Assembly (NCBI RefSeq): GCF_000688375.1
Contig: NZ_JIAF01000003.1
Coordinates: 1 to 64,000 of the forward strand
Direction: 5' to 3'
DNA length: 64,000 nucleotides
Source: Prevotella sp. HUN102
Lineage (GTDB): Bacteria > Bacteroidota > Bacteroidia > Bacteroidales > Bacteroidaceae
Made by a program: the position numbers and the translations under genes. Shown here piece by piece: positions 48,591-64,000 of the stretch. The notes below the pieces were generated by a model. The model saw only the letters and a program-made list of their open reading frames with translations. It made no database searches and was not told the origin of the DNA. Positions within the stretch are counted from its first letter, which is position 1. The number at the start of each line of letters is the position of its first letter.

Positions 48591-48670
48591 ATTATACTTT
48601 ATTTCAATAGTTACCTAATATCTTTCAAATAAGAATTTATCCTAAAAATAAGAGTGTTACCTATATTCTT

Positions 48671-48742
48671 CTCAAAATTGTCTTATAAGACTTTTCAAAT
48701 TCTCTTATAGGACAATTTTAATTCTCTTATAAGACAATTTCC
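48671..48742. repeat. TCTTATAAGA palindrome array, copy A
   Basis: Three imperfect 18-20-bp palindromes in a row: GTCTTATAAGAC (perfect, 48680-48691), TTCTCTTATAGGACAATT, and ATTCTCTTATAAGACAATT. The whole of about 72 bp recurs, with about five differences, in inverted orientation at 63817-63890. It lies upstream of the SPFH gene and downstream of the HU gene. Confidence 0.9.
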
Positions 48743-48857
48743 TTACTTTTATAACACCTGATTATCAACGAGTTATGGAAGTACATTTTTGCCCAGTAAA
48801 AACAACGGAAACGGTGCGTGAAACAATAGTGCTCCACGCACCGAAACAATGTCTGTC

Positions 48858-49310
48858 CTATGGAAGATTCTCTTCTCCGCCACTCGTTCCGGAAGAATCG
48901 TCGGAAGCATTGACGATGTCTTCCTGAGGAGCAAAGTCGAGAAGGCGGACATCGAGCGTGTCGCGCATCGTCGTACTCTTGGTGAACTGCACATTCACCT
49001 GCTTGATGAGCTGTGCGCCCTTCTTCTTGGCTTCGGCTGCCGTCTCCACGCCCTGCGATTTCAGCGTCAGGCGGAACGAGCCCAAGTCGCCGAGCCGCAC
49101 GGTGTTGCCTGCCTCCAAAGCCTCTATGACCTCGTATTGCAGCGCATCCAAGACGGCTTTCACGTCGGCACTCGAAACCGTGGAACGCTTCTCCACACGC
49201 TTTACTATCTGCGCAAGTGTCATCGGTGTGGTCGGTGCCATCTGCGGATAATACTTCACTTCGTTCTTTTTAAGCGGATTCTTCTTCGCTTGGATTACAT
49301 ACTTAATCAT
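48858..49310 (-). CDS. HU-family DNA-binding protein (long form)
   Basis: 150 residues. The HU/IHF fold covers about residues 28-125: MTLAQIVKRVEKRSTVSSAD, VIEALEAGNTVRLGDLGSFR, and a basic region VQFTKSTTMRDTLDVRL. The N-terminal basic extension and the acidic/Ser-rich tail (NASDDSSGTSGGEENLP) are typical of Bacteroidetes HU-HIG proteins. It is the last gene on the minus strand after the tra operon and may bend DNA during excision or transfer. Confidence 0.9.
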   Translation of the reverse strand: MIKYVIQAKKNPLKKNEVKYYPQMAPTTPMTLAQIVKRVEKRSTVSSADVKAVLDALQYEVIEALEAGNTVRLGDLGSFRLTLKSQGVETAAEAKKKGAQLIKQVNVQFTKSTTMRDTLDVRLLDFAPQEDIVNASDDSSGTSGGEENLP

Positions 49311-49404
49311 AAGCCATTACTTTAAGGGGTTGATGAATTATCGCAAAGATAGTGATTTTATTTCATAAATGCAATAAAAGGCGAGAACTTTCTGCTAAGA
49401 GAGT

Positions 49405-49941
49405 TTATTTTTCATATACGGAACAACCATAATATAGGGAATAAGGCAAAGCGTTTAGCCGTTCGCATCGTTCAAGGCTTTGGTTACTACTGTGGCGGAC
49501 TTTTCCTTTGTCCTCTGCTTTTTCATTATTGAAACTGAAGGTCAGCTGCTGCATCTTACCGAAACTGTCCTCCACGTACACGTCAATCGTCTGGCGGTCG
49601 GTGGAGAGCGAGGTGTAATACAGGCGGAACACATCCTTGGTGAGCGGATAGCGGTCGTTGGGCTTGAATACCGTGCCGTTGTCCATCTTCAATGTTCCCT
49701 TGCCGTCGGGCTGGAAGTAGCGGATAGTGTAGTGTGTGTCGGCAAATTCGCCCCCTCGTTTGAGGGTGCAGCGTATCTCTGCCGTCTGTCCCTTGATGAT
49801 GTCTTTCTGAACGGGCATCGTCTCGATGGTGAACGGATAAGACTGCTCCACATCTAGCTCCCTATCACAAGCAGATAGACAAAACACGGAAAGGGCAAGC
49901 ACGCCCATTACCCATATCGAACTTAAAATCTTCTTTTTCAT
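49405..49941 (-). CDS. traQ: Conjugative transposon protein TraQ (DUF3872)
   Basis: 178 residues with a lipoprotein-like signal (LSVFCLSACDRELDVEQSYP) and an Ig-like domain (FTIETMPVQKDIIKGQTAEI, ADTHYTIRYFQPDGKGTLKM). After the usual FSFNNEKAEDKGK end about 28 further residues follow (RHSSNQSLERCERLNALPYS), which I do not recognise from the family; this may be a read-through or an altered 3' end. It probably acts in the outer-membrane part of the transfer apparatus. It directly follows traO; no traP primase gene lies between or after. Confidence 0.88.
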   Translation of the reverse strand: MKKKILSSIWVMGVLALSVFCLSACDRELDVEQSYPFTIETMPVQKDIIKGQTAEIRCTLKRGGEFADTHYTIRYFQPDGKGTLKMDNGTVFKPNDRYPLTKDVFRLYYTSLSTDRQTIDVYVEDSFGKMQQLTFSFNNEKAEDKGKVRHSSNQSLERCERLNALPYSLYYGCSVYEK

Positions 49942-49953
49942 TTTTCTTCTTGC

Positions 49954-50535
49954 TTAAAAATTAAACCTAAGCCCTGCCGAGAGTGCAGGACGGAAATGAT
50001 GTATGTCCGTTCCAAAGAGGAAACGCCCTTGTGCCTTGACGAGAAACAGAAGTCTGTCCGTGAGGAACACCTCCACCGAGCCATGCACGGCACCACCATA
50101 GACAAAGCGTGAGCGGTCGAACAACGTAGCCCCATCGGGCAGCAGCTTCTTGTCCTCATTCAATTCCTCGTAACCGCCCAATGCGGATATGCCAGCATAA
50201 AGAAACACGTTCTTGCCATTGTCGGAGAGTATCGGGTGCATATAGCCCACCTGCAAAAGCGCATCTTTGAGCTTTACGCCATAATCCCTATACGGCATAT
50301 TCTGCTGTTCATACTCAACTCCTACAAAGGAGTAGTTCTCTCGTTTCAAGTAACGGGTAAGCGATACCCCAACACCGAAGTTATCCTTGGCAAAGAACTT
50401 TTCTCCTTTGATAAGGGGAACGCTGCCCATGACTTCCATTCCTTTCTGTTTGGGTATCAGCCGTTGGGCGTGCGATGGCAGACTGAAAGTCATTGCCACC
50501 GCCACGCAAACCGATAAAATGAGTTTCTTCTTCAT
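49954..50535 (-). CDS. traO: Conjugative transposon protein TraO
   Basis: From the Met at 50535 the 193-residue protein has signal peptide MKKKLILSVCVAVAMTFSLP and an outer-membrane beta-barrel-like body with alternating residues (RENYSFVGVEYEQQNMPYRD, LQVGYMHPILSDNGKNVFLY) ending in Phe (SAGLRFNF), as outer-membrane proteins do. In Bacteroidetes ICEs TraO is always between TraN and TraP/TraQ and is thought to be part of the outer-membrane complex. Confidence 0.92.
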   Translation of the reverse strand: MKKKLILSVCVAVAMTFSLPSHAQRLIPKQKGMEVMGSVPLIKGEKFFAKDNFGVGVSLTRYLKRENYSFVGVEYEQQNMPYRDYGVKLKDALLQVGYMHPILSDNGKNVFLYAGISALGGYEELNEDKKLLPDGATLFDRSRFVYGGAVHGSVEVFLTDRLLFLVKAQGRFLFGTDIHHFRPALSAGLRFNF

Positions 50536-50540
50536 AGCAC

Positions 50541-51497
50541 CTACCATTTGAGTTTGAGGTTGTCAATCTTCTTGGCGAGCAACAGGTCTTCCTGCTCGAC
50601 ATAAAAGGTCAGCGTGCACCCTCCGTTTCGCTCGTAGAGCGTTACCTCTAATTGCTTGTCCTCCGAGAGAGCAAACTGTTCCAACACAAACACGGAATGC
50701 TCGCTATCCTTACCCTTTACCTGCATCACCTGATGGTAGGCACGCAGGGGCTGAAGTACCTGTTCCTGTATGGCGGTGCGCTTTGCCACCTTCTTATCCA
50801 CTACCTTGAACGTGATGAAATCGACCGAGTACGGCATGTTCGTGCCGTTTTCCATACGAGTGTGGAAATACAGCAAGCCGTTATGGGCATACAAGCCACG
50901 GAGCAGGAACTTCATGCCGAACTGCTGCGTACCGATATGCTTGATGGTGCGTTTGTCATTCTGATAGATGGTCTGCATCATCAGCTTTACCAAGACGGGC
51001 GACTCGTTGCCGAGTTCCTTGAAATAGATGTCGGCACGGTTGCTCGGCAATCGTCCTTCTGTTGTAGAGAGAAAATCTTTCATCTCCACGCTGAGCTTCT
51101 CCGGCTCGTCGGCATATTTTACGTTAAAGGCGTAAAACGAGCCGTCTTCGCAAATAACGCTCATATTGGTCTCCGTTTCAAAGTCCTTGACGGCAGCCTT
51201 CACGCGCAGTACGTTCTCCGCATCCTCCGCCTTACCTGCAATGATGTTCTGTGAACCCAAGTCCACATAGCGAACGGCAGAGGGGAAGATGAGATGCACG
51301 GTCTTGTCGAAGGTAACGTCCAAACCGTAAGGCAGGACGACACGCCCATTAGGAATGGCACGGCTCATGCCTTGAAAGAGTTCGCCCGAAGAGAGAGGAC
51401 GATTAGGCATAAGCGGTGTGCCGTTGTTGATGTCTTGTGCAGTGGCTGTCGCTCCCATCGTAGCGAGCAAAGCCATTGATAAAATAAGTTTCTTCAT
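50541..51497 (-). CDS. traN: Conjugative transposon protein TraN (DUF4138)
   Basis: 318 residues with signal peptide MKKLILSMALLATMGATATA. The DUF4138 body contains VTFDKTVHLIFPSAVRYVDL near residue 62, SQNIIAGKAEDAENVLRVKA, and NGLLYFHTRMENGTNMPYSV near residue 200. By position and domain it is the VirB9-like outer-membrane core component. It is 5 bp from traO, and 48 bp after traM. Confidence 0.93.
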   Translation of the reverse strand: MKKLILSMALLATMGATATAQDINNGTPLMPNRPLSSGELFQGMSRAIPNGRVVLPYGLDVTFDKTVHLIFPSAVRYVDLGSQNIIAGKAEDAENVLRVKAAVKDFETETNMSVICEDGSFYAFNVKYADEPEKLSVEMKDFLSTTEGRLPSNRADIYFKELGNESPVLVKLMMQTIYQNDKRTIKHIGTQQFGMKFLLRGLYAHNGLLYFHTRMENGTNMPYSVDFITFKVVDKKVAKRTAIQEQVLQPLRAYHQVMQVKGKDSEHSVFVLEQFALSEDKQLEVTLYERNGGCTLTFYVEQEDLLLAKKIDNLKLKW

Positions 51498-51545
51498 TGT
51501 TGCTGTTGATTTGATGTTATTGTTTTACTTCTCATTCTTGATTGT

Positions 51546-52814
51546 TTATTTGGTCTGCACCAAGAAAAGGCGGTAGCCTCCTTTGAGCGTTACCTTGACG
51601 GTACGCAGTTTCTTCTGAAGAAGTTGGCTCGCTCCCTGCATCACACCACGAGCCGCCTCGGAGATAATCTGGTCCTTGGCGGAGGAAGCGAAGGTGAATG
51701 ATGTCCCCATCGAGCCACCAATGTTCGCCCCGACCTCTTTGAGCGCGCCCAAGTCCTCCGAACCGGGGATATACACACCCTCCTGTCCGTCCGTGTCGTA
51801 AGCCGAGAGTTTGACGGCTATGATATGACCGTCCACCTCAATACTTTTGATAAGCAGTCGCATACGGTTGCCCTCAATCTTGGCAGATGCAATCAGTCGG
51901 CTCTGCCGTGGAATATGCAGTCCCTGCACCTTGGCAGTCTCCAGCAGGCGGAGTACCACATTGTCGCCCTCCTTGAGCGTGGTTGTCCTGTCTACCACCA
52001 CTTTGAGCGTGTTGCGTATCGTGGGAGCAGCCGTACTCGTGAGCGAATGGAAGCCCATGTTGCGTGCCTTCGTGCCATACTCTGCAATAAAGTCCGCATC
52101 GCTCATCGGCTGACTGAGTGAGGACACCACCTGCCTTCGTTCTGCCAGGACCTCCATTGCGGGCGTACCGGTTGATGCGGTCTGATTTCTCTCGGCATCA
52201 TTGGATGGTATTTCATTGTCCTTCCCGTCCGAAAAGGCATTGCCCAAGGACGGTAGTTTGGCAGATGTACCCGGCAGATACTTCGCTGCCATCTGATAAC
52301 TCTTTTCCATCAGGGCAAGCTGTCGTTTCTCCTCATCCTCTTCCTTGTAGCTCTGTTGGGACAATTCCTTTTTGAGGTTGTCAATCTCCTGTCTCATTGC
52401 CTCACGTTCCTCCTCGTGTGGATCGGGAGCGTAAAAGGAATTAAGCAGACGGTTGTTCTCCTCATAGCGTCGCATGGAGCTTTCTATCTTTGCCGTGGAA
52501 GCGGCTGTTTCGGCACGTTCCGTTTCCGTTGGAGTCGTATTTTCGGTGAAGTAGTCGGACAGTCTCCCCATCTCCTCGCGGGTCTGCTCCTCCTGTTCAG
52601 CTTTGTTGCCCAGTTCATAGGCTTTGAGCTTGTTCTCCGTGAGTTTTTCGGTCGTAGCCTGCGGGATGCTGTCGTTCAAGCCTTGCTCGGCAGCGGTCTT
52701 GTCCTTGCCCGACGGGGCGAAGATGAACCACATCGAGAGGGCGAAGAGCAGTCCCAGTCCTCCGAAGACCAAGCCTTTCTTCATTTGTTCTTTCTGTTTA
52801 TTATCCATTTTCAT
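51546..52814 (-). CDS. traM: Conjugative transposon protein TraM
   Basis: 422 residues. One N-terminal membrane helix (GLVFGGLGLLFALSMWFIF), a long periplasmic, coiled-coil/proline-poor region (EEREAMRQEIDNLKKELSQQ) and a C-terminal VirB10-like domain (ESVEVDGHIIAVKLSAYDTD-like IKSIEVDGHIIAVKLSAYDT, EGVYIPGSEDLGALKEVGAN). It should span the periplasm and link inner and outer parts of the channel. The start could also be the second Met at 52808. It overlaps traL by 14 bp. Confidence 0.93.
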   Translation of the reverse strand: MKMDNKQKEQMKKGLVFGGLGLLFALSMWFIFAPSGKDKTAAEQGLNDSIPQATTEKLTENKLKAYELGNKAEQEEQTREEMGRLSDYFTENTTPTETERAETAASTAKIESSMRRYEENNRLLNSFYAPDPHEEEREAMRQEIDNLKKELSQQSYKEEDEEKRQLALMEKSYQMAAKYLPGTSAKLPSLGNAFSDGKDNEIPSNDAERNQTASTGTPAMEVLAERRQVVSSLSQPMSDADFIAEYGTKARNMGFHSLTSTAAPTIRNTLKVVVDRTTTLKEGDNVVLRLLETAKVQGLHIPRQSRLIASAKIEGNRMRLLIKSIEVDGHIIAVKLSAYDTDGQEGVYIPGSEDLGALKEVGANIGGSMGTSFTFASSAKDQIISEAARGVMQGASQLLQKKLRTVKVTLKGGYRLFLVQTK

Positions 52815-53100
52815 TGATTGTTTGATGATATTGTAGGTAATAATTGCCCTGTAACTCGTGCAAGGTGCTGTCCGTCCGAATGGGACTATCCAGAAGTCTT
52901 CCCTTTGGTATAGACAGTCTATCCTTCTGAGGCAGGAAAAACTGTGCTATCATCCAAAGACAGCAGATGAGATAGACAAAACTCAGCCCATAGACGACAG
53001 CCTTGCGCTGTCTTATCGTGAGCCTCTCGCACCGATGGCGGAGCCAAAGGTGCAGCCTCAGGTAGTGGCGAGAGAGCAGATGGTTTCCTTTCCTTGCCAT
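52801..53100 (-). CDS. traL: Conjugative transposon protein TraL (DUF3989)
   Basis: 99 residues: a basic N-terminus (GNHLLSRHYLRLHLWLRHRC), one membrane helix (VVYGLSFVYLICCLWMIAQF) and a short periplasmic tail (LSIPKGRLLDSPIRTDSTLH). It lies between traK (4 bp) and traM (overlap). Probable small accessory protein of the inner-membrane complex. Confidence 0.9.
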   Translation of the reverse strand: MARKGNHLLSRHYLRLHLWLRHRCERLTIRQRKAVVYGLSFVYLICCLWMIAQFFLPQKDRLSIPKGRLLDSPIRTDSTLHELQGNYYLQYHQTINENG

Positions 53101-53104
53101 AGCC

Positions 53105-53728
53105 TTATCGTTTATAGGTTTGAATGTCCTGGTTCTGTCTTACAAGGAACTGCTCCATAAGAAAACCTTGCGGATTGTTGTCCGAGCGGACAGAGTTCTG
53201 CAGTGTGCAGGTCGTGACAAGACTTCGCTCCGTGACGTTGCTCTGACGGACGATGAACATCCGGGCATAGGTCGTTACCTCGTAAGGATAAGCGTTGAAG
53301 TTGCAACGGATGGAGTCCACCTCTATGCGCTGATTGACATTGCCCGATATGGCACGGTTGTAGTACCCTTTCTCCGCCAAGTCCTTGTAGTAGTTGAAAG
53401 CCGACTTGTCGCACAGCAGGAAGGCACGCTCCATGTTCTTCTCTATGGCATCCTTGTCGGGCGCAATGGTGAAGAACAGTTCGTGAAAGCGACGCACATG
53501 CTCACGGGCCTCCACGGGGCGGTTCCTGCTTGCATCCTGACTGAGGGCAAGCATGAGCGACTTGCCTTGGTCGAGCACATAGATTTTCTCCCGTTGCTCC
53601 TTGGCGAAGCTGTATGAGGCATAGACGGCATAACCGCTCACTGCCACGCACACGATGGCGAAGACAAAGGCGTAGAGCCGTATCTGCCTGAATGAGGTTT
53701 CGATATTGGTGAGTGATTTGAATTCCAT
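53105..53728 (-). CDS. traK: Conjugative transposon protein TraK
   Basis: 207 residues with one N-terminal membrane helix (IRLYAFVFAIVCVAVSGYAV) and a VirB8-like periplasmic domain (FAKEQREKIYVLDQGKSLML; VREHVRRFHELFFTIAP-like REHVRRFHELFFTIAP; ALLCDKSAFNYYKDLAEKGY-like segment). It ends with QFLVRQNQDIQTYKR. VirB8-like proteins nucleate the inner-membrane platform. Confidence 0.93.
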   Translation of the reverse strand: MEFKSLTNIETSFRQIRLYAFVFAIVCVAVSGYAVYASYSFAKEQREKIYVLDQGKSLMLALSQDASRNRPVEAREHVRRFHELFFTIAPDKDAIEKNMERAFLLCDKSAFNYYKDLAEKGYYNRAISGNVNQRIEVDSIRCNFNAYPYEVTTYARMFIVRQSNVTERSLVTTCTLQNSVRSDNNPQGFLMEQFLVRQNQDIQTYKR

Positions 53729-53761
53729 AGTTCAATTTTCATTTTATTTATTTTCTGATTC

Positions 53762-54799
53762 CTATTTTCCCTTGAACAGCCTGCCCTTGATACGTCCGCC
53801 CACGTTGCCGATGGCTGCACCTGCCCCACCTGCCAGGTACTTGCCGCCCGTGTATGCACCTTGTGCGCCACGCTGTGCGGTCTGGTTGACATTGCGACCG
53901 TAGGAGCCGATACCGCCTCCGGCTTCGATAATCCAGCCTGCCACGGTCGGCACACAGAAGTAACCCACGATGCCGATGAGGAAGAAGACGATGTAGTACC
54001 ACGTCCCCGAATCGGGCAGGTAGTTCGGGTCGCTGAGTGCCTCGATGTCCTTCTGAACCATCAGCGTCTGTATCTTGGTAAGAAGTGCCGTGAGAATACT
54101 GCTGACAGGCAACCATAGATAGACCGAGATATACCGTGAGAACCAAGCCGTGAGCGAACCCGAAAGCCCGTCCCACACGGCAATGCCGAAGACGACGGGA
54201 CCGAGTATCGAAAGGACGATAAGGATAAAGGTGCGCAGCGTGTCGATGATAAGCCCAGAGGCATGGAACAGCAGTTCCATCAGGTCGTGGACGAGTTTCA
54301 TGAACCATTGCTTGGTCTGATAGGCGGCACGCTCGGCGTACATCCCCGCAATCGTCACGGCATCCTCCGGACCGATGATGCCCATCTCCTCTATCTTCTG
54401 GTCGAATTTCTCGTTCGATACAAGATAGGCAGTCTCAGGATTTTTGAGATAGGCTTCCTCCTGCAACTTGTTTCTCTTGGCAGTCAGCTCCGCCAAGCTG
54501 CTCTCCTGCTTGTGTACCATCATCTCCGTACCCTGTACCACGGGCGAGAGCACGGCGTTCATCGTTCCCAGCACGATAGTCGGGAAGAACATGATGCAGA
54601 AGCCCAAGACAAAGGGACGGAGCAGCGGGAACACGTCGATTGCCTCGGCACGGGCGATGGAAGCCCACACCCGAAGGGCGATGTAGAAGAGTGCGCCCAA
54701 GCCCGCTATCCCCTTGGCAATACCCGTCATCTCTGAGCATAGCGGCATCATCTCGTCATAGGTGGAGCGTAAAAGCTCGTGTAAACTGGCAAAATCCAT
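53762..54799 (-). CDS. traJ: Conjugative transposon protein TraJ
   Basis: 345 residues with several membrane helices (GIAGLGALFYIALRVWASIA, VLGFCIMFFPTIVLGTMNAV, TFILIVLSILGPVVFGIAVW, YYIVFFLIGIVGYFCVPTVA) and a Gly-rich C-terminus (AGGGIGSYGRNVNQTAQRGA). This is the VirB6-like polytopic inner-membrane channel component. It follows traI by 49 bp. Confidence 0.93.
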   Translation of the reverse strand: MDFASLHELLRSTYDEMMPLCSEMTGIAKGIAGLGALFYIALRVWASIARAEAIDVFPLLRPFVLGFCIMFFPTIVLGTMNAVLSPVVQGTEMMVHKQESSLAELTAKRNKLQEEAYLKNPETAYLVSNEKFDQKIEEMGIIGPEDAVTIAGMYAERAAYQTKQWFMKLVHDLMELLFHASGLIIDTLRTFILIVLSILGPVVFGIAVWDGLSGSLTAWFSRYISVYLWLPVSSILTALLTKIQTLMVQKDIEALSDPNYLPDSGTWYYIVFFLIGIVGYFCVPTVAGWIIEAGGGIGSYGRNVNQTAQRGAQGAYTGGKYLAGGAGAAIGNVGGRIKGRLFKGK

Positions 54800-54848
54800 A
54801 AGCGAATCTGTTTGGTGAATGTTGTTTCTGTTACGTCAGCCTATGGAA

Positions 54849-55481: not shown

Positions 55482-55530
55482 TTTGCAAATTGATTTTTGC
55501 GTGGATACAATGCCGCTTGACTCGCTTGGG

Positions 55531-55595
55531 AAAATATGACGTCTGTTTTCTTGAAAGATGACGTCATATTTTCGAGGATATGATGTCATATTTTC
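55531..55595. promoter_or_regulatory. GACGTCATATTTTC repeats between traG and traI
   Basis: ATGACGTCATATTTTC (55558-55573) and ATGATGTCATATTTTC (55580-55595) are direct repeats 22 bp apart; AAAATATGACGTC (55531-55543) is the same in inverted orientation. ATGACGTCAT is a perfect palindrome. The site lies about 50 bp upstream of traI in the only sizeable gap within the tra operon, so it may be an operator for the traI-traQ half. Confidence 0.6.
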
Positions 55596-55623
55596 AAGCT
55601 TATTGTATTACGCGGTTAAACTT

Positions 55624-58128
55624 TCATTGATTTCTTTTCTCTTTGGCAAGCTGGCGGATAGCCGTCTCGATGTCGCCACCGAGCTGTGCAGCCTTGTCCA
55701 TCACCTCCACCTTTTCTGTTTCCTCGGTGGTATAGGTCAGGTATTCCTCCATGCTCACTTCCGTGGCATAGACGGCACTCTGCATACCACCCAAGCCAAT
55801 CCATACTTCCTTGTAAAGTCGGTTCGGGTCGTTGTTCTGGTTGATGGAGAGGATTTGGCTCTTTTCCTTTTCCGACAAGCCGAGCATCGCCTGTATGCCG
55901 TCGAACTTGGTCATATATTTGCGCTGGTCGAGCAGTATCTTGCAGTCGGAGTTGTTGATGATGCTCTCCTTGACGATGGGTGACTGGATGATGTCGTCCA
56001 CCTCCTGAGTCACGACAATAGCCTCGCCGAAATACTTTCTGACGGTCTTGTAGAGATATTTTATATAGTCCGCCATGTTTGCCGAGGCAATCGCCTTCCA
56101 CGCTTCCTCAATGAGTATCATCTTTCGGATACCTTTCAAGCGTCGCATCTTGTTGATGAAGGCTTCCATGATGATAATCGTGACTACGGGGAACAGGTCT
56201 TTGTTGTCCTTCACTTGGTCAATCTCAAAGACAATAAAGCGTTTGGAGAGCAGGTCGATGTTCTTGTCCGAGTTCAAGAGGAAATCGTAACGACCACCTT
56301 TATAATATTGCTTGAGCGTCGTTAAAAGGTTGTTAATATTAAAGTCCGAGAGCGTTACCTCGATGTCCCGCTTCCGCATATCCTCCCGATAGACATCCCT
56401 CAGATACTCGTAAAAGGTATTGAAGCAGGGAACGACGGTACGATCCGTCCTGATCAGTTCGATATAGGCACCCACGGCAGAACCGAGTTCGCCTGCTTCT
56501 GTCTTGGTGATATGCTCGTCGGCACTCTTCCAGAGGGTCAATAAGAGCGTGCAGATGCTTTCTCGCTTCTCTACATCGAAGACATAATCGTCCGTGTAGA
56601 ATGGATTGAAAGAAATGGGGCTTTCGTCCGTATAGGTGAAGTACACCCCATCTTCTCCCTTGGTCTTGCGGTGGATAAGCTCACACAAGCCCTGATATGA
56701 GTTACCCGTATCGACCAAGAGGACGTGCGCCCCCTGCTCGTAATACTGGCGTACCATGTGGTTGGTGAAGAAACTCTTGCCACTGCCCGAAGGACCGAGA
56801 ATGAACTTGTTGCGGTTGGTAATCACTCCCTTTTTCATCGGCAGGTCGGAAATATCCAAATGAATAGGCTTTCCCGAAAGACGGTCAGCCATCTTGATCC
56901 CGAAGGGAGAGAGCGAGTCCTTGTAGTTCGTCTCAGCGGTGAAGAAGCAGAGAGCCGGCTCGATGAAGGTATAGAACGACTCTTCCGCAGGGAAATCGGC
57001 TGCATTGCCGGGAATACCCGCCCAATAGAGCGTTGCCGCGTCAATGGTGTTGTGGCGTGGTCGGCACTCCATCAGGGCAAGGGCACTGCCTACGTCATTC
57101 TTGACAGTGCGCAGTTCCTCCTTGTCGCTGCTCCATGCCAGCACATTGAAATGCGCACGGATGGAGGTCAGCCCTTGTGAGTGGGCGATGTTGAGATACT
57201 CCTGTATCCACTCCTCGTTAATCTGATTGGAACGGGAATAACGTGCCAGCGAGTGCATGTTCCTTGCCTGCCTTTCGAAGCGTTCAAGATTGGCGTCGCT
57301 GTCCTCGATGAAGATGTACTGGTTATAGATATGGTTGCACGGCAGCATCAGGCCCACGGGAGCGGCAAAGGACAGACGGCAGTCGCTTCGGTCGGTGGAG
57401 AGCCGTTCATACCGACTGTCCGTACTGACCGTGGTCGGCAGGTCGTCCGTGTCTGAGAGCGTGTGCAGACAAAGCATATTGTCGCCCACACGCACAAGGT
57501 CGGCACCCAGGCGGATGTCCTCCAGCGAGGCGTGTCCTTCTTCCGAGAGGGAGAAATAACGGTCAAGCAAACCGCCTTTTTCCTTTGTGCCTACCAATTC
57601 TTCTTCCGTCATGCGGGTAATCCTTATCTGCTCCGTCTCGTTGATGATACGCTCGAACTGATCGACGGCTTCCATGAACTTCATGACCTCGTCCTTATTG
57701 GTAATTTCCTTGGGCAGCAGGTGTCCACGGCAGAGCGCAGAAAAGTTGCTCTGCTGTGCCATGCGCTGTTTGTTGGTTTTGGTCAGGAACAGGTAAACGC
57801 TGTGGTGCAGGTAAGGGCGCTCATTAAAGTGTCTCTCCGATGCACGGGCAAGGAAACTCAATCCACCCTCGGAGAGTTTACCTTGATAGTCCTCCTTGAT
57901 GAACCAATCCTGCTTATGTACGATACTGTAATCGGGCAGCACCTTGATGGCCTTGTGCCAAGCCGAGTGTATCGCCTCGTACTCGGTGGAGGTAACGGTA
58001 AAGAGTTCGGGAAGCTCCACACGGAAAGCCACCGTGATGTCCGCATCCTTGCTCACCATGCACCCCTGCTCGACGGAGAGCAGCGGGAATTTCGATTCCA
58101 AGGTCGTTATCTTACTGTTGTTTCTCAT
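55624..58128 (-). CDS. traG: Conjugation ATPase TraG (VirB4-like)
   Basis: 834 residues. Walker A is FILGPSGSGKSFFTNHMVRQ near residue 440, Walker B KMILIEEAWKAIASANMADY near residue 675, and EIDQVKDNKDLFPVVTIIIM precedes it. The N-terminal region (LESKFPLLSVEQGCMVSKDA) is the TraG-specific domain. This ATPase powers substrate and pilus assembly at the inner membrane. Its start overlaps the traF stop by 4 bp. Confidence 0.97.
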   Translation of the reverse strand: MRNNSKITTLESKFPLLSVEQGCMVSKDADITVAFRVELPELFTVTSTEYEAIHSAWHKAIKVLPDYSIVHKQDWFIKEDYQGKLSEGGLSFLARASERHFNERPYLHHSVYLFLTKTNKQRMAQQSNFSALCRGHLLPKEITNKDEVMKFMEAVDQFERIINETEQIRITRMTEEELVGTKEKGGLLDRYFSLSEEGHASLEDIRLGADLVRVGDNMLCLHTLSDTDDLPTTVSTDSRYERLSTDRSDCRLSFAAPVGLMLPCNHIYNQYIFIEDSDANLERFERQARNMHSLARYSRSNQINEEWIQEYLNIAHSQGLTSIRAHFNVLAWSSDKEELRTVKNDVGSALALMECRPRHNTIDAATLYWAGIPGNAADFPAEESFYTFIEPALCFFTAETNYKDSLSPFGIKMADRLSGKPIHLDISDLPMKKGVITNRNKFILGPSGSGKSFFTNHMVRQYYEQGAHVLLVDTGNSYQGLCELIHRKTKGEDGVYFTYTDESPISFNPFYTDDYVFDVEKRESICTLLLTLWKSADEHITKTEAGELGSAVGAYIELIRTDRTVVPCFNTFYEYLRDVYREDMRKRDIEVTLSDFNINNLLTTLKQYYKGGRYDFLLNSDKNIDLLSKRFIVFEIDQVKDNKDLFPVVTIIIMEAFINKMRRLKGIRKMILIEEAWKAIASANMADYIKYLYKTVRKYFGEAIVVTQEVDDIIQSPIVKESIINNSDCKILLDQRKYMTKFDGIQAMLGLSEKEKSQILSINQNNDPNRLYKEVWIGLGGMQSAVYATEVSMEEYLTYTTEETEKVEVMDKAAQLGGDIETAIRQLAKEKRNQ

Positions 58129-58460
58129 TGCTTCTTTCTTTTGGGTTGAAGGTTACGGATAAGGTGAAAGACCGTCCGGCGGTTCACAAGGTAGCGTGGG
58201 TGCATACGCACCGCCCCCTGCTTCATCAGCCCATACTGCCCGTACTTTCGGTTCATGGAGAACGTTTGCCACACCACGAGGGTGGCACCCACTACGCCTA
58301 TGACCAGACAGGCAATCTGACTGATGCCGCAGAGATAGAGCACGACCACGAGGATGAAGACGGCAAGCAAGCCTCCCGCAAAGAGGAAGAGGTACTGCGC
58401 CTTCAAACCCTTGAATTCCACCGTCCGACCTATACCCTTGTTGATTTCCCACTCAGCCAT
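58125..58460 (-). CDS. traF: Conjugative transposon protein TraF (DUF4133)
   Basis: 111 residues from the Met at 58460 (MAEWEINKGIGRTVEFKGLK, the family start). Two membrane helices (YLFLFAGGLLAVFILVVVLY; IACLVIGVVGATLVVWQTFS) and a basic tail (HLIRNLQPKRKKQ). VirB3-like partner of TraG. It lies between traE (2-bp gap) and traG (4-bp overlap). Confidence 0.95.
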   Translation of the reverse strand: MAEWEINKGIGRTVEFKGLKAQYLFLFAGGLLAVFILVVVLYLCGISQIACLVIGVVGATLVVWQTFSMNRKYGQYGLMKQGAVRMHPRYLVNRRTVFHLIRNLQPKRKKQ

Positions 58461-58462
58461 TG

Positions 58463-58768
58463 TTACAGGAAGAAGGAACGCAGGATGGTTGCTGCCACGA
58501 TGAGGAAGATACACGCACCGAACCAAGAGGCGGCGGTCTTGCTCGTGTCGGGGGCGCCACTAGAGAACTTGTTATAGACTTTTATTCCTCCAATCAAGCC
58601 CACCACGGCACCGATGGCATAGATGAGTTTTGTACCCGGGTCAAAGTAGGATGTTACCATCTTGGTGGCTTCGTTGATACCCGCCATGCCGTTGCCCTGT
58701 GCGTAGGCTCCTGCGGTGGCGGCAGCCATCAGGAGCAGCATCATTGTGATTTTCTTTCTGTTGTTCAT
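58463..58768 (-). CDS. traE: Conjugative transposon protein TraE (DUF4134)
   Basis: 101 residues with signal peptide MNNRKKITMMLLLMAAATAG and two helices (AIGAVVGLIGGIKVYNKFSS; WFGACIFLIVAATILRSFFL). By size and layout it is the VirB2-like pilin. The NGMAGINEATKMVTSYFDPG segment is the family signature. Confidence 0.95.
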   Translation of the reverse strand: MNNRKKITMMLLLMAAATAGAYAQGNGMAGINEATKMVTSYFDPGTKLIYAIGAVVGLIGGIKVYNKFSSGAPDTSKTAASWFGACIFLIVAATILRSFFL

Positions 58769-58921
58769 TGTTCTTTTATTTTAAGTTATTAAACGAATTG
58801 TCTTCTTTTTGGTGGAGGTGGTAAGGGGCGGCTCGGTTTTATCGTATGACAGATATTGGTTGATTGTTTTACTTTTTGAGCCACCCCCGCATCACTCCAG
58901 ATATGAACAAAAACATTAGTC

Positions 58922-59659
58922 TTACAGATAGTATGACAGTGGACGGTCTCCCATATCATCAGCTACCGTCTTCATATTGTCAGAAGGCTCTTTACTGGAA
59001 GTGTCAATTGAGGACAGTTCTTCTCCTTCCTCTACTCTTCGGATCTTATTCAGCAGAATGGACTGCTCACCCTGCATCTTGGCGACATACTCCTTGTACT
59101 TCTCCATAAAGTCCGTGCCTTTAAGTTGCCCGACAAATTGCTTGACTTCGGCATCATCTACCTCTTCGCTGTTCTTTCGCCAGTTTCTCATACGACCTAA
59201 GTCACGTGCGAGGATATATTGACTGGATACCTCGCCATCTTCAGGGGCGGATTCAATGGGCAGGCTCAGTTCCTCGCGAGCAACCTCGTTTTCGTCCTCT
59301 TTTTCCATCTCGTAGCTAACCTCCATCTCGTTGTCCTTTTCTTTCTGAAGTTCGGTATTCTCGGAGATTTCCTGTGCAAAATTATTGATATTCTGCTCTG
59401 GATTTTCGGATGGGGAAGATGCAGGAACTTGCGGGATGGAAAGGGAAAACGGACGACTTCTACCGACAAGTTCAAACTCTGTCCCTGCTTCTTTTTCATG
59501 TACTTTCACCCCCTTTTCCTTAGATTGCCCATATTCCTTTCGGGACATTTTTACAATATCGAGAGGAGACACGAACCGCATATAGAAATACAGTATGCCG
59601 AGTAATAGCCATACGGCTATGAGCAGCAGTATAAAAGAGAAAAGTATCGTCTCCATCAT
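58922..59659 (-). CDS. TraD-position hypothetical membrane protein
   Basis: 245 residues: one N-terminal membrane helix (FILLLIAVWLLLGILYFYMR), then SRKEYGQSKEKGVKVHEKEA and a long acidic region rich in Glu and Asn (NNFAQEISENTELQKEKDNE, EDENEVAREELSLPIESAPE), ending PLSYYL. This is the usual gene before traE in this ICE group. No enzymatic motif. It overlaps the next upstream gene by 4 bp. Confidence 0.75.
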   Translation of the reverse strand: MMETILFSFILLLIAVWLLLGILYFYMRFVSPLDIVKMSRKEYGQSKEKGVKVHEKEAGTEFELVGRSRPFSLSIPQVPASSPSENPEQNINNFAQEISENTELQKEKDNEMEVSYEMEKEDENEVAREELSLPIESAPEDGEVSSQYILARDLGRMRNWRKNSEEVDDAEVKQFVGQLKGTDFMEKYKEYVAKMQGEQSILLNKIRRVEEGEELSSIDTSSKEPSDNMKTVADDMGDRPLSYYL

Positions 59660-60144
59660 AAGTTCAATGTTTTGTATCGCTTACATGCCGAAGCAGCTTC
59701 GTTCAACAAGTCCTCATTGGCACGGAGATGCCATGTGAGAATATTCTCGATATAGGCAGTAAGGGTCGCATCCGACTTTGTTTCCCAAAGGACATTGCGC
59801 AGCATCTGAAGTATCTCCCGATTGATGGTAAAGCCTGACTTTGCACTCTGGGGTGTAGGCTTGAAATACATGGATTCATAAAGATGCCATGCGTCTTCCT
59901 GTGGCTTTGGGACCGATATTGGGGTACGAAAATTATCTCGGATGGTATTTCCCCTTCCATCGTTCTCCACATGGTTTGCCGGCTTATGGAGCGATAGCAA
60001 GTCGTCTGTATCACAAGCCTGTGTCGTGTCATTCATCGGTCTCTTTGTTTTTTGATATAACACCATTACATAAGAGCAGAATGCCACTGTGACGGCAATG
60101 TTGAAAAACACGAGCGATAGGATAATTACGTTAGTCGTTGTCAT
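59656..60144 (-). CDS. DUF3408 family protein (TraC/TraD-like), with membrane anchor
   Basis: 162 residues. An N-terminal membrane helix (IILSLVFFNIAVTVAFCSYV) precedes the DUF3408 domain at about residues 85-160 (INREILQMLRNVLWETKSDA, YIENILTWHLRANEDLLNEA), a ribbon-helix-helix-like fold. The domain is clearly paralogous to that of the next upstream gene, which lacks the anchor. Probable DNA-binding accessory protein of transfer. Confidence 0.8.
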   Translation of the reverse strand: MTTTNVIILSLVFFNIAVTVAFCSYVMVLYQKTKRPMNDTTQACDTDDLLSLHKPANHVENDGRGNTIRDNFRTPISVPKPQEDAWHLYESMYFKPTPQSAKSGFTINREILQMLRNVLWETKSDATLTAYIENILTWHLRANEDLLNEAASACKRYKTLNL

Positions 60145-60155
60145 GATTCTATGTT

Positions 60156-60677
60156 TTATAATGTTATGGTTGTCTTGCGTCTTTGCTTTGCAGCCGCACT
60201 GTTGAGCAGTTCCAGATGTTCACGCAGGTGTTCCCGAAGAATGTTGTCTATATATGCGGCTATGGAAACACGCTCCCCCAAATCCTGTAACACGTTGCGC
60301 AGATTTTGCAGCGTTTCCAGATTAATGGAAAAGGCTGTCCGCATTTGGGAACGGACGGGATGAAAGTACAGGGAACGGTAGTCCTCAATGGAAAGAGGTG
60401 CCCTGTCGGGCTTTTCCATTCTCGGCTTCTTTTCTCTTTTCAACTCCCTATCCCTTGTCTCCACGGTTTCCCCCTCGGCTTCATCAACATATTCCTCTTT
60501 TGTGGTCTTTGCCTCTTTCGGGTGTTTCCCCTCCTCTCGTGATGTTTCAGGCAAAGGCGCGGCTTCTGGCGGATCGAAAGAGTTGGGAGTCGTTGCAGGT
60601 TCCACAACGACATTGTCCTCTGCCATTTTCTTCAGCTTGCTTTCCAGCTGCTGCTTTCTTTCCTCAATCGTTGCCAT
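60156..60677 (-). CDS. DUF3408 family protein (TraB/TraC-like)
   Basis: 173 residues: a coiled, charged N-terminus (ERKQQLESKLKKMAEDNVVV, VEPATTPNSFDPPEAAPLPE) and the DUF3408 domain at about 95-165 (INLETLQNLRNVLQDLGERV, YIDNILREHLREHLELLNSA). These proteins accompany TraA and probably bind DNA near the transfer origin. It overlaps the traA stop by 14 bp. Confidence 0.88.
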   Translation of the reverse strand: MATIEERKQQLESKLKKMAEDNVVVEPATTPNSFDPPEAAPLPETSREEGKHPKEAKTTKEEYVDEAEGETVETRDRELKREKKPRMEKPDRAPLSIEDYRSLYFHPVRSQMRTAFSINLETLQNLRNVLQDLGERVSIAAYIDNILREHLREHLELLNSAAAKQRRKTTITL

Positions 60678-61467
60678 TTTCTGATGTCGTTTTTAGTTTG
60701 AGACGTCGTGTCAGGTCGGAGACAAGTTCGTCCACTCCTGTGCCAATCCTCAATCCCTTTACGGGAGGCTGATAGGTGGAGCGAAACACTCCTCGCAGCC
60801 CGTATGTGGAAAGTTCGTGGGAGAAGCGGTGCATGGCATATACATAGCTGGGCAGGAGCGTGATTTGTTGCTCGTTGATGAACTTAGTGTATTCATCGAT
60901 GATGACGTTCTTTACTCTTCTGTCCACCTTGTTCCAAAACAGTATGATGTCCTTTATCCGGGAATCAGACATCGAAACTCCGATGTCCGTGATGGTCTTG
61001 GCGTATGCCAGACATGAAACCAGCGACTGAATGTCGGCTTCAATCGGAGAAAGAATATAGTCCATCTGAAGGGACAGCTCCATCAACTCAGAGGTCCCTG
61101 CATGACCGGGGAAGTCGAACACGACCACTTGAAACTCCTCGTCGTGGAGTCTCTCAATATAGTTACGGGCGGTTTTGATTGCATCGCCGGGAGCGGACTT
61201 GTAAATTCTGTATGCTTTTTTACCGAATGCCTGAAAATACGCTTCCATCGACTTTGACAGTTCCTCGTTTTCCTGAATGACTCTCTTCTCGCGCTCCCTG
61301 AGTTTGTGAAAGGAATCCTGCGACAAGTCGCAGTCCATCACGAAGAGATTGACATCCTTCTCATAGAAAAGGATGCTACTTATGATTTCGGCAAGCGTAC
61401 TTTTTCCGACTCCTCCCTTTTGCGAGGAGAACCCCAGAAAGAGGGGGCGTTGTTGTTTGTTCTCCAT
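60664..61467 (-). CDS. traA: ParA-family ATPase TraA
   Basis: 267 residues with the deviant Walker A SSQKGGVGKSTLAEIISSIL near residue 14, Walker A' VFDFPGHAGTSEL near residue 116 and a central helical insert. ParA-type ATPases position DNA or proteins in the cell; the first gene of the tra operon in these ICEs always codes for one. It probably works with the DUF3408 proteins. It begins the minus-strand tra operon, diverging from mobA across 586 bp. Confidence 0.95.
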   Translation of the reverse strand: MENKQQRPLFLGFSSQKGGVGKSTLAEIISSILFYEKDVNLFVMDCDLSQDSFHKLREREKRVIQENEELSKSMEAYFQAFGKKAYRIYKSAPGDAIKTARNYIERLHDEEFQVVVFDFPGHAGTSELMELSLQMDYILSPIEADIQSLVSCLAYAKTITDIGVSMSDSRIKDIILFWNKVDRRVKNVIIDEYTKFINEQQITLLPSYVYAMHRFSHELSTYGLRGVFRSTYQPPVKGLRIGTGVDELVSDLTRRLKLKTTSENGND

Positions 61468-61858
61468 AATGATAATTTCTTAGTTCATATTATTTGTCTA
61501 TTTAATGTTTGGATGTACTATCATTATCAAGAATCATCTGCAGACAGTTTGCTCTGACTACGTATGGTTCATGCAATAGTCCCAAAGGACGATTTCGAGT
61601 TCTTACAATCAGTTGTACTGACAATAGTTTGTCATGACAATAAATTGTTATGAATAGGCATTGTTCCTTCTTGTCATCTTTGGTGCAAGCCAACGGTAAT
61701 ATGATACATCTTTTGCTTGTGTCATCATACCATTGCCAGCTCGTTCTGACTGCAAAATAAAAGATATTTCGACTGATTTTATTATACCGATGAAGTACTG
61801 GGAAATGAAAGGAAAAAGAGTGAATATCGCTGATAATGAGATATTTGAAAATCCGCTG

Positions 61859-61866
61859 TAACTTTG
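61859..61866 (+). promoter_or_regulatory. -7 box upstream of mobA
   Basis: TAACTTTG fits TAnnTTTG on the plus strand, 187 bp upstream of mobA and just before the oriT-like hairpin. No TTTG with the standard spacing is seen. The rest of 61468-61850 shows no supported gene; it is AT-rich and contains short TTGTCATGACAATA-type inverted pieces near 61625. Confidence 0.45.
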
Positions 61867-61953
61867 CAGGCGGATAGGGAACATGGAGGTGAACTATCCG
61901 AAGCTGACACCCTTACAGGTGGATGCTTCATTCGCATCATCTCTTGATATTGG

Positions 61954-62004
61954 CAAGGTGTGTCTTTGTAACACAAACCGCAGTTTGTACCACAAAGACC
62001 CTTG
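61954..62004. other. Candidate oriT: long imperfect hairpin upstream of mobA
   Basis: CAAGGTGTGTCTTTGT on the left and ACAAAGACCCTTG on the right are inverted repeats; inside them ACACAAAC and GTTTGT pair around CGCA. The position, 50 bp upstream of the mobA-relaxase genes and between the diverging tra and mob operons, is where these ICEs keep oriT. The nick site is not readable. Confidence 0.6.
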
Positions 62005-62053
62005 CTTCGGTGCGAGGGAATAATCACTCCAAAGTCGTAATTAAGAAAACAGA

Positions 62054-62473
62054 ATGGATATGAATAAGAAAGAGGAACATCGTTCAGAGCGGAAACGGGT
62101 AGACAAGCCCCGTTGGGACAACTGGCATGTACGGCTGCCCAACCCGAAAGACCAGCAGAGAGCGATAGATTTGTTTCAGCGTTCGGGAGCAGAAACCAAG
62201 TCGGATTTTGTGCGCGGACGTATTCTTGGAGAGAGTTTTAAGGTTATCACGGTGGATAAATCCGCCGTGGAATACTATCGGAAACTCTCCGAACTAATTG
62301 TTCAAATCCATAAAATTGGCGTGCTGTACAACCAGACCGTGCGTGCCATCAACAGCTATCACAGCGTGAAGACCGCACAAATTCTGCTTGAAAAGTTGGA
62401 GAAATTGTCTGCTCAAATTATTACGTTACAACAGAGAGCCATCCAACTGACCGAACAATTTGATAACAGATAA
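62054..62473 (+). CDS. mobA: Mobilization protein MobA (relaxosome accessory)
   Basis: 139 residues: a basic N-terminus (KKEEHRSERKRVDKPRWDNW), RLPNPKDQQRAIDLFQRSGA, and the MobC-like signature LSELIVQIHKIGVLYNQTVR near residue 80, as in ribbon-helix-helix nicking accessory proteins. It is six bases from mobB. Confidence 0.93.
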   Translation: MDMNKKEEHRSERKRVDKPRWDNWHVRLPNPKDQQRAIDLFQRSGAETKSDFVRGRILGESFKVITVDKSAVEYYRKLSELIVQIHKIGVLYNQTVRAINSYHSVKTAQILLEKLEKLSAQIITLQQRAIQLTEQFDNR

Positions 62474-62479
62474 GCGAGT

Positions 62480-63760
62480 ATGATTGCCAAAATTTCAGCT
62501 ACTGAAAATCTCGGAGGGGCGTTGGGCTACAACTTCAAGAAGGTGGAGCGTGACGAGGCATCCGTTCTATGCGTAAATGAATTAAGGAAAGCCTTTGACG
62601 GTACTTACCGAATGGATAAGGTGCTTAGCGATATGCAGAAGGATATCCCGGAGAAGTGTCGAACAAAAAAAGCGGTGTTCCATTGCTCGCTCAATCCGCA
62701 CCCGGACGAGAAACTCTCTGATGAACTTCTTGTGCAGATTGCCAAGGAGTATATGGAGGCACTCGGCTACGGCAAGCAACCCTATATCGTGTTCAAGCAT
62801 AACGACATCGCCCGTGAGCATGTACATATCGTGTCGCTTCGGGTGGATAGTAATAGAAGAAAAATCAATGACCGCTTCGAGAAGCGAAGGAGCAAGCAGA
62901 TTACCGATGCACTGGAAAGAAAGTATAACCTTATCCCAAGTTCAAAGGTTAGCGAGCAAGCCGTAACAGAAACGCCCAAAGTGGATATTGATAGAGGAAA
63001 CATCAAGGAGCAGGTGGCAAGTGCCCTCCGCATGGTGCTGAAGCATTATCGCTTCTGTTCCTTGGGCGAACTGAACGCTATCCTTTCCGCATACAATCTT
63101 GCCGTGGAAGAAGTAAAGACGGAGTTTAGGGGAAAGAAATACGACGGACTTGTATATGTCCCGATAGATGATAAAGGTAACAAAGCAAGCACACCCATCC
63201 ATGCCTCAGACATCGGTCGTGGTATGGGCTATACTGCCGTACAGAATAAGGTGCAGAAATCGAAGCAAGCCATCAAACCACTGATACCAACCATTAGAAG
63301 GAAAGTATTGGAAGTTATGTGTACTTCTCCTGATACAGAAGAAAAACTCCGACAAAGATTGGAGGAACAGGGTTTGCGTGTGGTAATTCGCAAGAACGGA
63401 AGCGGACGTATCTATGGCATTACCTTCATTGATGACAAAGAGGGCATTGCTCTCAATGGCTCACGGTTGGGCAAGGGGTATGCCGCCAATGTTTTTAATG
63501 CCTATTTCTCCAATTCTACCCATAACCCATTCTTGGACGAAACATTGTATGGCAGTCCGTCTGTCCGTTTGGAACCATCGACAACCGTTCAACCCTCGCA
63601 ACAGAATACAGAGGAAGAAGACAACCTCATCGATGAACTTATCGAGGATATGGTGGGCGAGTCATTCGGAACGATGGGCAACGATGATTGGAAGGAAGTG
63701 GCATGGCAGCGTAAACTCCGCAAACTAAGTAAGGTTAATCTCAAACGAAGAAAGCGGTAA
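62480..63760 (+). CDS. mobB: Relaxase MobB
   Basis: 426 residues starting MIAKISATENLGGALGYNFK, where the Tyr in GYN is the likely catalytic residue. The metal-binding motif is REHVHIVSLRVD near residue 113. The C-terminal part has KEGIALNGSRLGKGYAANVF, a relaxase tail domain. It nicks the oriT and leads the strand to the coupling protein. Unlike the relaxase of the IME next door (same fold, 307 residues) it has a long C-terminal region. Confidence 0.95.
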   Translation: MIAKISATENLGGALGYNFKKVERDEASVLCVNELRKAFDGTYRMDKVLSDMQKDIPEKCRTKKAVFHCSLNPHPDEKLSDELLVQIAKEYMEALGYGKQPYIVFKHNDIAREHVHIVSLRVDSNRRKINDRFEKRRSKQITDALERKYNLIPSSKVSEQAVTETPKVDIDRGNIKEQVASALRMVLKHYRFCSLGELNAILSAYNLAVEEVKTEFRGKKYDGLVYVPIDDKGNKASTPIHASDIGRGMGYTAVQNKVQKSKQAIKPLIPTIRRKVLEVMCTSPDTEEKLRQRLEEQGLRVVIRKNGSGRIYGITFIDDKEGIALNGSRLGKGYAANVFNAYFSNSTHNPFLDETLYGSPSVRLEPSTTVQPSQQNTEEEDNLIDELIEDMVGESFGTMGNDDWKEVAWQRKLRKLSKVNLKRRKR

Positions 63761-63816
63761 TTCTCTCGTTCAAACGGCAATCAAAGAGTATTCTAACACA
63801 ATATAAATCACCTATG

Positions 63817-63890
63817 GAAAATTGTCTTATAGGAGAATAAAAATTGTCCTATAAGACAATTTGAAAAGTCTTATAAGACAATTTTAGAGA
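63817..63890. repeat. TCTTATAAGA palindrome array, copy B
   Basis: Inverted counterpart of 48671-48742. It has GTCTTATAAGAC at 63868-63879, ATTGTCCTATAAGACAAT and ATTGTCTTATAGGAGAAT. It ends 26 bp upstream of the coupling protein gene start, in the same relation to its gene as copy A has to the SPFH gene. Confidence 0.9.
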
Positions 63891-63915: not shown

Positions 63916-64000
63916 ATGGCACAGGAAGACGATTTAAGGGCATTGGGTAAAGTCATGGACTTTATGCGGGGTATATCGGTGATATTCCTTCTGATTAACT
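63916..64000 (+). CDS. Type IV coupling protein (MobC/TraG-like T4CP), 3' end outside window
   Basis: Only 28 residues are visible: MAQEDDLRALGKVMDFMRGI then SVIFLLIN, the start of a first membrane helix. This matches the N-terminus of the coupling proteins (also called MobC in these elements) that follow mobB and bring the relaxase-DNA complex to the channel. Identity rests on this start and the position. Confidence 0.75.
   Translation, partial: MAQEDDLRALGKVMDFMRGISVIFLLIN

Follow-up and report, generated by a model that had tools for sequence, protein, structure and literature searches.

The two arrays of palindromes that bracket the tra-mob block of a conjugative element in Prevotella sp. 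HUN102 are, on comparative sequence grounds, probably not a working pair; they appear to be separate copies of a short repeat that accompanies one type of DNA-bending (HU) gene in Prevotella-like bacteria. The array is most likely a DNA site, with the linked HU-HIG protein as the best candidate for its binder. We put the probability that a HU-HIG protein and its array, acting as protein and DNA site, best explain both copies in the window (the whole 64,000-nucleotide stretch of DNA that was analysed) at about one half. A testable association, that of a HU-HIG clade and a 22-bp palindrome array travelling together, takes the place of the story of a bracketing pair.

The arrays and the HU-HIG unit

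Both arrays are made up of three 22-bp palindromic units in 67 nt, they lie 15 kb apart and they are inverted relative to each other. Array 1 (48674..48740, minus strand) has cores at 48681-48690, 48703-48712 and 48725-48734, with TCTTATAAGA, TCCTATAAGA and TCTTATAAGA as the minus-strand cores, and array 2 (63819..63885, plus strand) has cores at 63825-63834, 63847-63856 and 63869-63878, the spacing being 22 bp in each. The presence of two inverted three-palindrome arrays, as described in the initial annotation, is borne out, with six near-palindromes of three or fewer mismatches observed against 0.48 expected, a number that none of 100 shuffles reached, and with arms (48674-48740 and 63819-63885) that are 96% complementary. 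The arms differ at 3 of 67 nt and not at about five positions as had been estimated. It also holds that each array directly precedes a gene start, with the same relative orientation at both places, the SPFH start at 48590 being 83 bp from array 1 and the coupling protein ATG at 63916 being 30 bp from array 2. The genome has a third array as well, which lies between sufC and sufD and is not part of the element.

Array 1 forms the 3' part of a larger unit that runs from HU-HIG gene through hairpin, leader and array to tail. The gene, which was overlooked in the initial annotation, ends 117 bp from array 1 on the side opposite SPFH and encodes a HU-HIG DNA-binding protein of 150 aa (48858..49310, minus strand; PF18291 E=1e-27, PF00216 E=1.6e-09), placed in the PF18291 family by 97.1 bits against a curated cut-off of 26.2; the genome has 13 HU-HIG-like genes. 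The hairpin GGTGCGTG...CACGCACC and the T-rich stretch after it (48813..48842, minus strand) are presumed to form the terminator of the HU gene, and a similar hairpin is found 3' of HU at two other loci (L030 and L032). The leader (48741..48812, minus strand) is common to HU-linked and many orphan copies and carries the motif TAACTCGTTGATAATCA at 48759-48775, which alone occurs at 8 places in its own genome, only 2 of them at arrays, and is thus not diagnostic. The tail after array 1 (GAGAAGAATATAGG..., 48650..48673, minus strand) is weakly conserved. Beyond array 1 lies the gene of a SPFH/Band 7 protein with a GYF_2 domain (47490..48590, minus strand; PF13421, PF14237), for which there was no PADLOC match, and the conserved tra genes end, ahead of the HU unit, with traQ (49405..49941, minus strand; PF12988).

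Array 2 is an orphan copy between the mobB relaxase gene (62480..63760, plus strand; PF03432) and the start of the coupling-protein gene (63916..64000, plus strand), which runs past the window end and which we take to be of the TraG/MobC type. The element has Pfam matches to TraQ, DUF3408, MobC_2 and Relaxase and a gene order as in related loci, that is the usual order of tra block, MobC-like MobA, relaxase MobB and coupling gene. We presume it to be a CTnDOT-like Bacteroidales conjugative element.

The repeat in other genomes

Sequence comparison has shown a repeat that is linked to this HU clade, dispersed and variable in unit number. Close relatives of the window HU were found in 10 of 298 genomes when at most 13 candidates per genome were scored. 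Among the 23 close HU copies that were examined, 22 have at least one palindromic unit downstream and 20 have at least two, the exceptions being L124, which has no array, and L120 (a broken HU) and L131, with one unit each; one genome (G142) has 15 close copies on full scoring, 13 of which entered this count. Two Tannerella forsythia arrays (L009 and L019) are also preceded by a near full-length HU. Relics of HU remain before single-unit arrays, comprising residues 1-38 or 1-36 in G468 and G522, and residues 96-134 lie beside an array in G497. Arrays apart from HU occur in at least 7 of the 10 HU-bearing genomes, and any array at all in at least 10 of the 288 genomes with no close HU (E<=1e-6; hand tally). 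The two differ by Fisher's test with p=5.5e-8, kinship being ignored, and the counts are lower bounds, at most 9 candidates having been scored per genome; the HU-array model was itself derived partly from the genomes used in this test.

A close full-length HU is absent from 12 array-bearing genomes (G017, G083 and the ten of the tally), with short close fragments in some. As intact three-unit arrays are found in G017, G083 and G290, where the best HU-like proteins are just 31-38% identical, a close HU is not necessary for an array to be retained, and this counts against the preferred model. The family has from one to five 22-bp units, mostly three, and copies at unrelated sites have about 150 bp in common, comprising leader, array and tail. 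Unit number varies even at one site, sufC-sufD, with three units in P. jejuni (L012) and one in G026. Oriented by unit content, the copies show a strand bias with respect to the gene on their left, but orientation by the leader reverses several of them (sufC-sufD, L010, L011, L015), so that no general claim on orientation is made. A search of a plasmid collection with window positions 48600-48800 gave no match, viral contigs gave 0 matches to one exact repeat pattern, and the literal repeat strings were not found in the open-licence literature. Searches of that literature, which misses most papers in subscription journals, gave no description of the HU-array link.

An array is present in 3 of the 57 mobB/coupling-gene gaps that were examined. 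Array 2 differs at 1 of 67 positions from the arrays at the same spot in the two other elements (G017:C44, L065; G431:C2, L274), whilst array 1 is identical over 67/67 nt to a HU-linked array in another genome (L032). As each is nearer to arrays elsewhere (0 and 1/67) than to its partner (3/67), the comparison has shown them as apparently independent arrivals, copy 1 with HU after traQ and copy 2 as an orphan. Array identity among the three elements is 67/68, 67/68 and 68/68, compared with 72-84% for the 75 bp flank on the mobB side. On the coupling-gene side, identity to the window is 89% and 96% over the 74-75 nt that can be compared, and L065 and L274 are 68% identical to each other, a value that may reflect misalignment; flank comparisons resting on 6-13 aligned bases were left out. 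The array is thus more conserved than the mobB-side flank, with a less clear contrast toward the coupling gene. Identity among arrays could also come from recent spread or gene conversion, a point against reading them as DNA sites.

Readings of the arrays

That the inverted pair acts as a pair, either by allowing the 15-kb tra-mob block to invert or as a shared operator or centromere, is suggested by the inverted and highly complementary arms around the block, yet we consider it very improbable. MobB and the coupling gene are kept in related elements, whereas 54 of the 57 gaps have no array, and 29 of 30 traQ loci have neither HU nor array, the window being the sole locus that has them; absence of the arrays with the flanking genes conserved is the pattern that the initial annotation had named as counting against its proposal. 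The closer matches of each array elsewhere and the third copy outside the element also speak against a pair. Inversion would part mobB from the coupling gene, but the start of the coupling gene follows mobB in 57/57 gaps. A centromere-like site for TraA is unlikely from the distribution of the two, with TraA homologues (48-81% identical) in elements that have no array at the mobB/coupling-gene position; TraA is present in the elements of G434:C3, G431:C1, G003:C17 and G276:C20, where the array is the HU-attached one. Nor is an operator of the downstream gene general, as past other HU-linked arrays the next gene points either way. These comparisons led to rejection of the arrays as a substrate for inversion, as a pair of shared operators and as a centromere for TraA, and of the functions first proposed it is the general idea of a protein-binding DNA site that survives, as a candidate. 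As a caution, inverted repeats that look alike and flank transfer genes may be insertions, unrelated to each other, of a repeat found throughout the genome.

A selfish or inert intergenic repeat of the MITE or REP kind, moved by transposase or recombination, with no function for the element and with HU as passenger or former cargo, has a real but less than even chance of being the correct account. It would explain the shared stretch at unrelated sites, the 15 close HU copies of one genome, the stops in some HU frames, the varying unit number at sufC-sufD, the persistence of arrays in genomes without close HU, and the other, unrelated palindromes that occupy the same intergenic spots in other loci. 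Against this, neither terminal inverted repeats nor target duplications could be clearly made out by eye at filled and empty sites, the sites at mobB/coupling gene and sufC-sufD being too diverged for ends to be placed by eye and the outer arms pairing imperfectly, and the array is conserved above leader, tail and mobB-side flank. The array might instead act as a tandem hairpin in transcripts, either past HU or in the mobB/coupling-gene interval, for example as terminator, attenuator or RNase-resistant block. The units are able to self-pair, there is a terminator-like hairpin on the HU side of the unit, and in P. gingivalis a 77-bp repeat region is reported to give an antisense RNA (PMC8757827). 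However, covariation for three local hairpins or for one long hairpin was reached by 85/500 and 72/500 shuffles, the commonest departure from the unit, TCCTATAAGA (22/69 units), produces a C-A mismatch when the strand is read in the HU direction, and no long T-run is found 3' of the array in either window copy. With both structures within the range of shuffles a structured RNA was rejected, and a role in transcripts is improbable. For five loci Rfam gave nothing above gathering score and two sub-threshold matches, none at the array.

The reading as a DNA site is preferred because hairpin covariation does not exceed shuffles, and because of the conservation of the array, the HU linkage, the relics, the co-occurrence and the precedent of the HU protein PG0121. 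The full form of the repeat would be a HU-HIG gene, a terminator-like hairpin, a leader of about 70 bp, one to five 22-bp palindromes and a short tail. The array would serve as a DNA target in which successive dyads, one per unit, are set two helical turns apart, and a dimeric protein could assemble on it side by side; the likeliest candidate is the HU-HIG protein of the unit, or else a relative from the host. Such a nucleoprotein knot would bend or insulate the DNA between adjoining transcription units, and orphan copies may be remnants of HU units or arrays that have spread alone. DNA binding by HU proteins usually shows little sequence specificity, which counts against the model. We know of no target for HU-HIG-like proteins, and a linked candidate makes the question of their target testable. 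It is rather unlikely, if conceivable, that the whole forms a mobile protein plus landing pad, in which the HU-HIG gene spreads with its own palindrome target, seeds orphans in conjugative elements as well as in the genome, and marks a loading spot for defence genes. Four elements lack the segment from traG up to the start of traM and have the unit in its place, next to SIR2, restriction-modification or PLD genes. If this were true, HU-HIG proteins would include sequence-specific organisers of mobile-element cargo.

Comparison with known systems

The mobB/coupling-gene gap is also occupied by other intergenic palindromes of Bacteroidales, such as CTCCCCTCC..GGAGGGG, labelled here REP-like, which is found there in 24/57 loci; it is of other sequence, G+C rich and forms a single hairpin, unlike the array. 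The BrickBuilt minisatellite MITE of P. gingivalis resembles the array in having tandem 22-23 nt units within a dispersed repeat of an oral Bacteroidales, but its terminal inverted repeats are reported to resemble those of ISPg elements (PMC4596501). Identity with BrickBuilt was rejected, its reported 23-nt unit AGAYCATARTATCCTCTCRTRTG being unrelated to array units of the AAATTGTCTTATAAGA type. PINSR of the P. intermedia group (188 bp) is likewise intergenic and of similar total length, occurs in oral Prevotella and is reported without terminal inverted repeats (PMC4755523); P. falsenii and P. disiens, positive for PINSR by PCR, have arrays found here. P. intermedia has 177-184 copies of it, whereas arrays number a handful per genome, and in a comparison by description only, the passages on PINSR mention no HU or 22-bp array.

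A likeness in kind is seen with PG0121 and the 77-bp repeat of the K-antigen locus in P. gingivalis, an oral member of the Bacteroidales in which a HU-family gene and a long inverted repeat are again genetically tied (PMC3969353, PMC8757827). The window unit is dispersed in many genomes, unlike that system, the two being compared by description and not by sequence. The PG0121 protein is about 10 kDa and is encoded at the far end of a 19-kb operon, whereas in the window a 150-aa HU-HIG protein is encoded about 120 bp from a tandem 22-bp array. PG0121 is reported to have preferred the 77-bp inverted repeat over a 77-mer control in binding (PMC3969353).

Two arrays and their independent arrival

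Two palindrome arrays are found in the window, each with three TCTTATAAGA-type cores at a spacing of 22 bp. Array 1 (arm 48674-48740, cores 48681-48734) lies beside an SPFH gene (47490-48590, minus strand) that starts 83 bp beyond it, and array 2 (arm 63819-63885, cores 63825-63878) lies between mobB and the coupling-protein gene, which starts 30 bp beyond the array, at 63916 on the plus strand. The arms are 67 nt each with 96% complementarity, and with six near-palindromes against 0.48 expected, and none of 100 shuffles reaching six, chance is ruled out as their origin. The arrays and the adjoining gene starts are as the initial annotation described them, with 3 differences between the arms. 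It missed a third array, in the sufC-sufD gap outside the conjugative element, which makes three places in the genome of Prevotella sp. HUN102, and also an HU-HIG gene of 150 aa (48858-49310, minus strand; PF18291, E=1e-27) 117 bp from array 1, on the side away from the SPFH gene. This gene is followed at its 3' side by a terminator-like hairpin (48813-48842) and then a leader with TAACTCGTTGATAATCA, which together with the array and a tail make up what is here called the HU unit.

The arrays had been proposed to be a pair bracketing the tra-mob block, a proposal that did not hold when homologous loci were compared, as each copy is nearer to arrays elsewhere. Over 67 nt array 1 has no difference from an HU-linked array in another genome (L032), array 2 has one difference from each of two arrays in other mobB/coupling gaps (L065 in G017, L274 in G431:C2), and the two window arrays differ from each other at 3 positions; in wider windows of 78 nt the corresponding differences are 7, 6 and 12. 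Downstream of traQ the HU gene and array occur in one of 30 homologous loci, the window itself. The array is present in 3 of the 57 (30 + 27) mobB/coupling gaps examined, 11 of which (L263-L273) have relaxases only 41-42% identical; the three are the window, L274 and L164 of G513, where the array has two units and the neighbouring mobB is broken. This demonstrates that the two copies arrived independently, and opposite-oriented copies of an HU-linked array merely happen to flank the tra-mob block.

Array scans added four further mobB/coupling gaps with the array, two in G017, one in P. oulorum and one in Alloprevotella Lung230. The P. oulorum locus (L038) has a PF03432 relaxase that is 40% identical to that of the window, and the DNA of L061 and L066 is 87-88% identical to L038, thus the array is found in the same gap of a second relaxase group. 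An unrelated G+C-rich palindrome, CTCCCCTCC..GGAGGGG, is present in 24 of the 57 gaps (among L138-L163 and L275-L289), so the gap seems to be a place where palindromic repeats land.

A dispersed repeat linked to HU

The array is demonstrably dispersed. When one genome per species was scanned for the pattern, 30 stretches came up, distributed over Prevotella, Alloprevotella, Hoylesella, Tannerella, Phocaeicola abscessus and one Bacteroides MAG. The exact two-unit pattern occurs in 5 of 100 genus genomes and 5 of 301 family-sample genomes (own genome in both), some of them with several copies, and a sequence-model search placed arrays in at least 38 of 298 genomes at E<=0.01, many of these matches being weak. 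Non-orthologous copies have about 150 bp in common, comprising leader, array and tail. Most arrays have three units, others one (L290, L291, L302), two or four, and the number is seen to vary at a single site, with three against one at sufC-sufD (L012, L200) and three against two at the mobB/coupling gap (L065, L297); such variation is a possible typing marker. Of the sufC-sufD gaps located, 19 of 29 are 24 bp or less, and in some Prevotella the gap holds other inverted-repeat inserts (L202, L214, L216, L217). A different hairpin array, TGCGAAGAATGCAG..CTTCGCA, likewise follows the leader motif TAACTNNNTGATNATCA, which is also found inside a repeat with GAGACCTCTGCA ends within the same genome (L089, L090, L093, L094).

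Linkage to HU is evident from copies close to the HU-HIG of the window (E<=1e-30, identity >=65%), which a search of 298 genomes located in 10. There are at least 23 copies, 13 of those listed being in Alloprevotella tannerae (G142), where full scoring gave 15 similar genes (13 inspected). Downstream of the 23 copies examined, at least one unit is found in 22 and at least two in 20, the exceptions being L124 (none), L131 (one) and L120 (one, the HU having two stops). Around those close HU genes of G142 whose surroundings were read (among L123, L125-L136) there are additional, diverged 22-bp units as well as CAACCCTAAGGGGTTG repeats. The other 12 HU-like genes of Prevotella sp. HUN102 are only 26-42% identical to that of the window.

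Arrays away from HU occur in at least seven of the ten HU-bearing genomes (G000, G003, G142, G213, G431, G447, G486), and any array (E<=1e-6) in at least 10 of the 288 without close HU (G010, G026, G128, G173, G290, G462, G468, G497, G499, G513), a co-occurrence with Fisher p=5.5e-8 from a hand tally that ignores kinship. Counting against the link, no close full-length HU was found in the latter ten genomes or in G017 and G083, their HU-like proteins being at most 38% identical, short fragments aside. HU fragments adjoin arrays in G468, G522 and G497, thus some orphan arrays at least are leftovers of HU units; stops also interrupt several HU frames. Among 26 presumed orphan windows HU was present in three, being near full-length ahead of the Tannerella forsythia arrays L009 and L019 and downstream of the array in L011, with no relics found in the other 23 (for L024 the sequence upstream was shorter than 100 bp).

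In four elements (G434, G431, G003, G276; L227:4521-8755, L228:5504-9840, L229:6347-9381, L230:2995-6315) the HU unit is found at the point where the stretch from traG to the start of traM is absent, with 0-180 residues left of the 834-aa traG product; the tra block of the window is complete. Defence-type genes lie beside HU and array in these elements, SIR2 (PDC-S25) and type II restriction-modification twice each, PDC-S42 and PLD once each, and the unit may draw in genes of this kind or may simply lie in a hot spot for cargo. The SPFH/GYF_2 and zinc-ribbon-like genes beyond array 1 (46410-48590), the zinc-ribbon match being weak and below the Pfam cut-off, are likely cargo too, with no PADLOC match to either.

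Conservation and possible mode of action

Conservation of the array is clear in a 23-row alignment, where its columns are much better conserved than leader and tail. At the mobB/coupling site the window array matches L065 or L274 at 67 of 68 positions, and these match each other at 68 of 68. Towards mobB the identity falls to 72-84% over 75 bp, and the mobB 3' ends of window and L274 are 80% identical; towards the coupling gene, however, the window is 89% identical to L065 and 96% to L274 over the 74-75 nt that can be compared, which leaves a clear contrast on only one of the two sides. For two hairpin structures no covariation beyond that of shuffles was found, the score being reached by 85 and 72 of 500, and the commonest departure, TCCTATAAGA, in 22 of 69 units, disrupts one pair on the HU-direction strand, which together fit a DNA target better than RNA.

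The palindrome array is a real repeat, a described function for which was not found in the literature searched. Each 22-bp unit may be a dyad site with the next unit two turns away, so that dimers would line up on one face of the DNA along the array, the linked HU-HIG protein being the best candidate for these dimers. HU proteins usually bind DNA with poor specificity, which argues against this mechanism, as does the keeping of arrays in genomes without close HU. A precedent is the HU protein PG0121 of P. gingivalis (PMC3969353, PMC8757827), which in binding preferred a 77-bp inverted repeat to a 77-mer control, with little discrimination between structures, and which the later paper proposed to act with an antisense RNA in antitermination.
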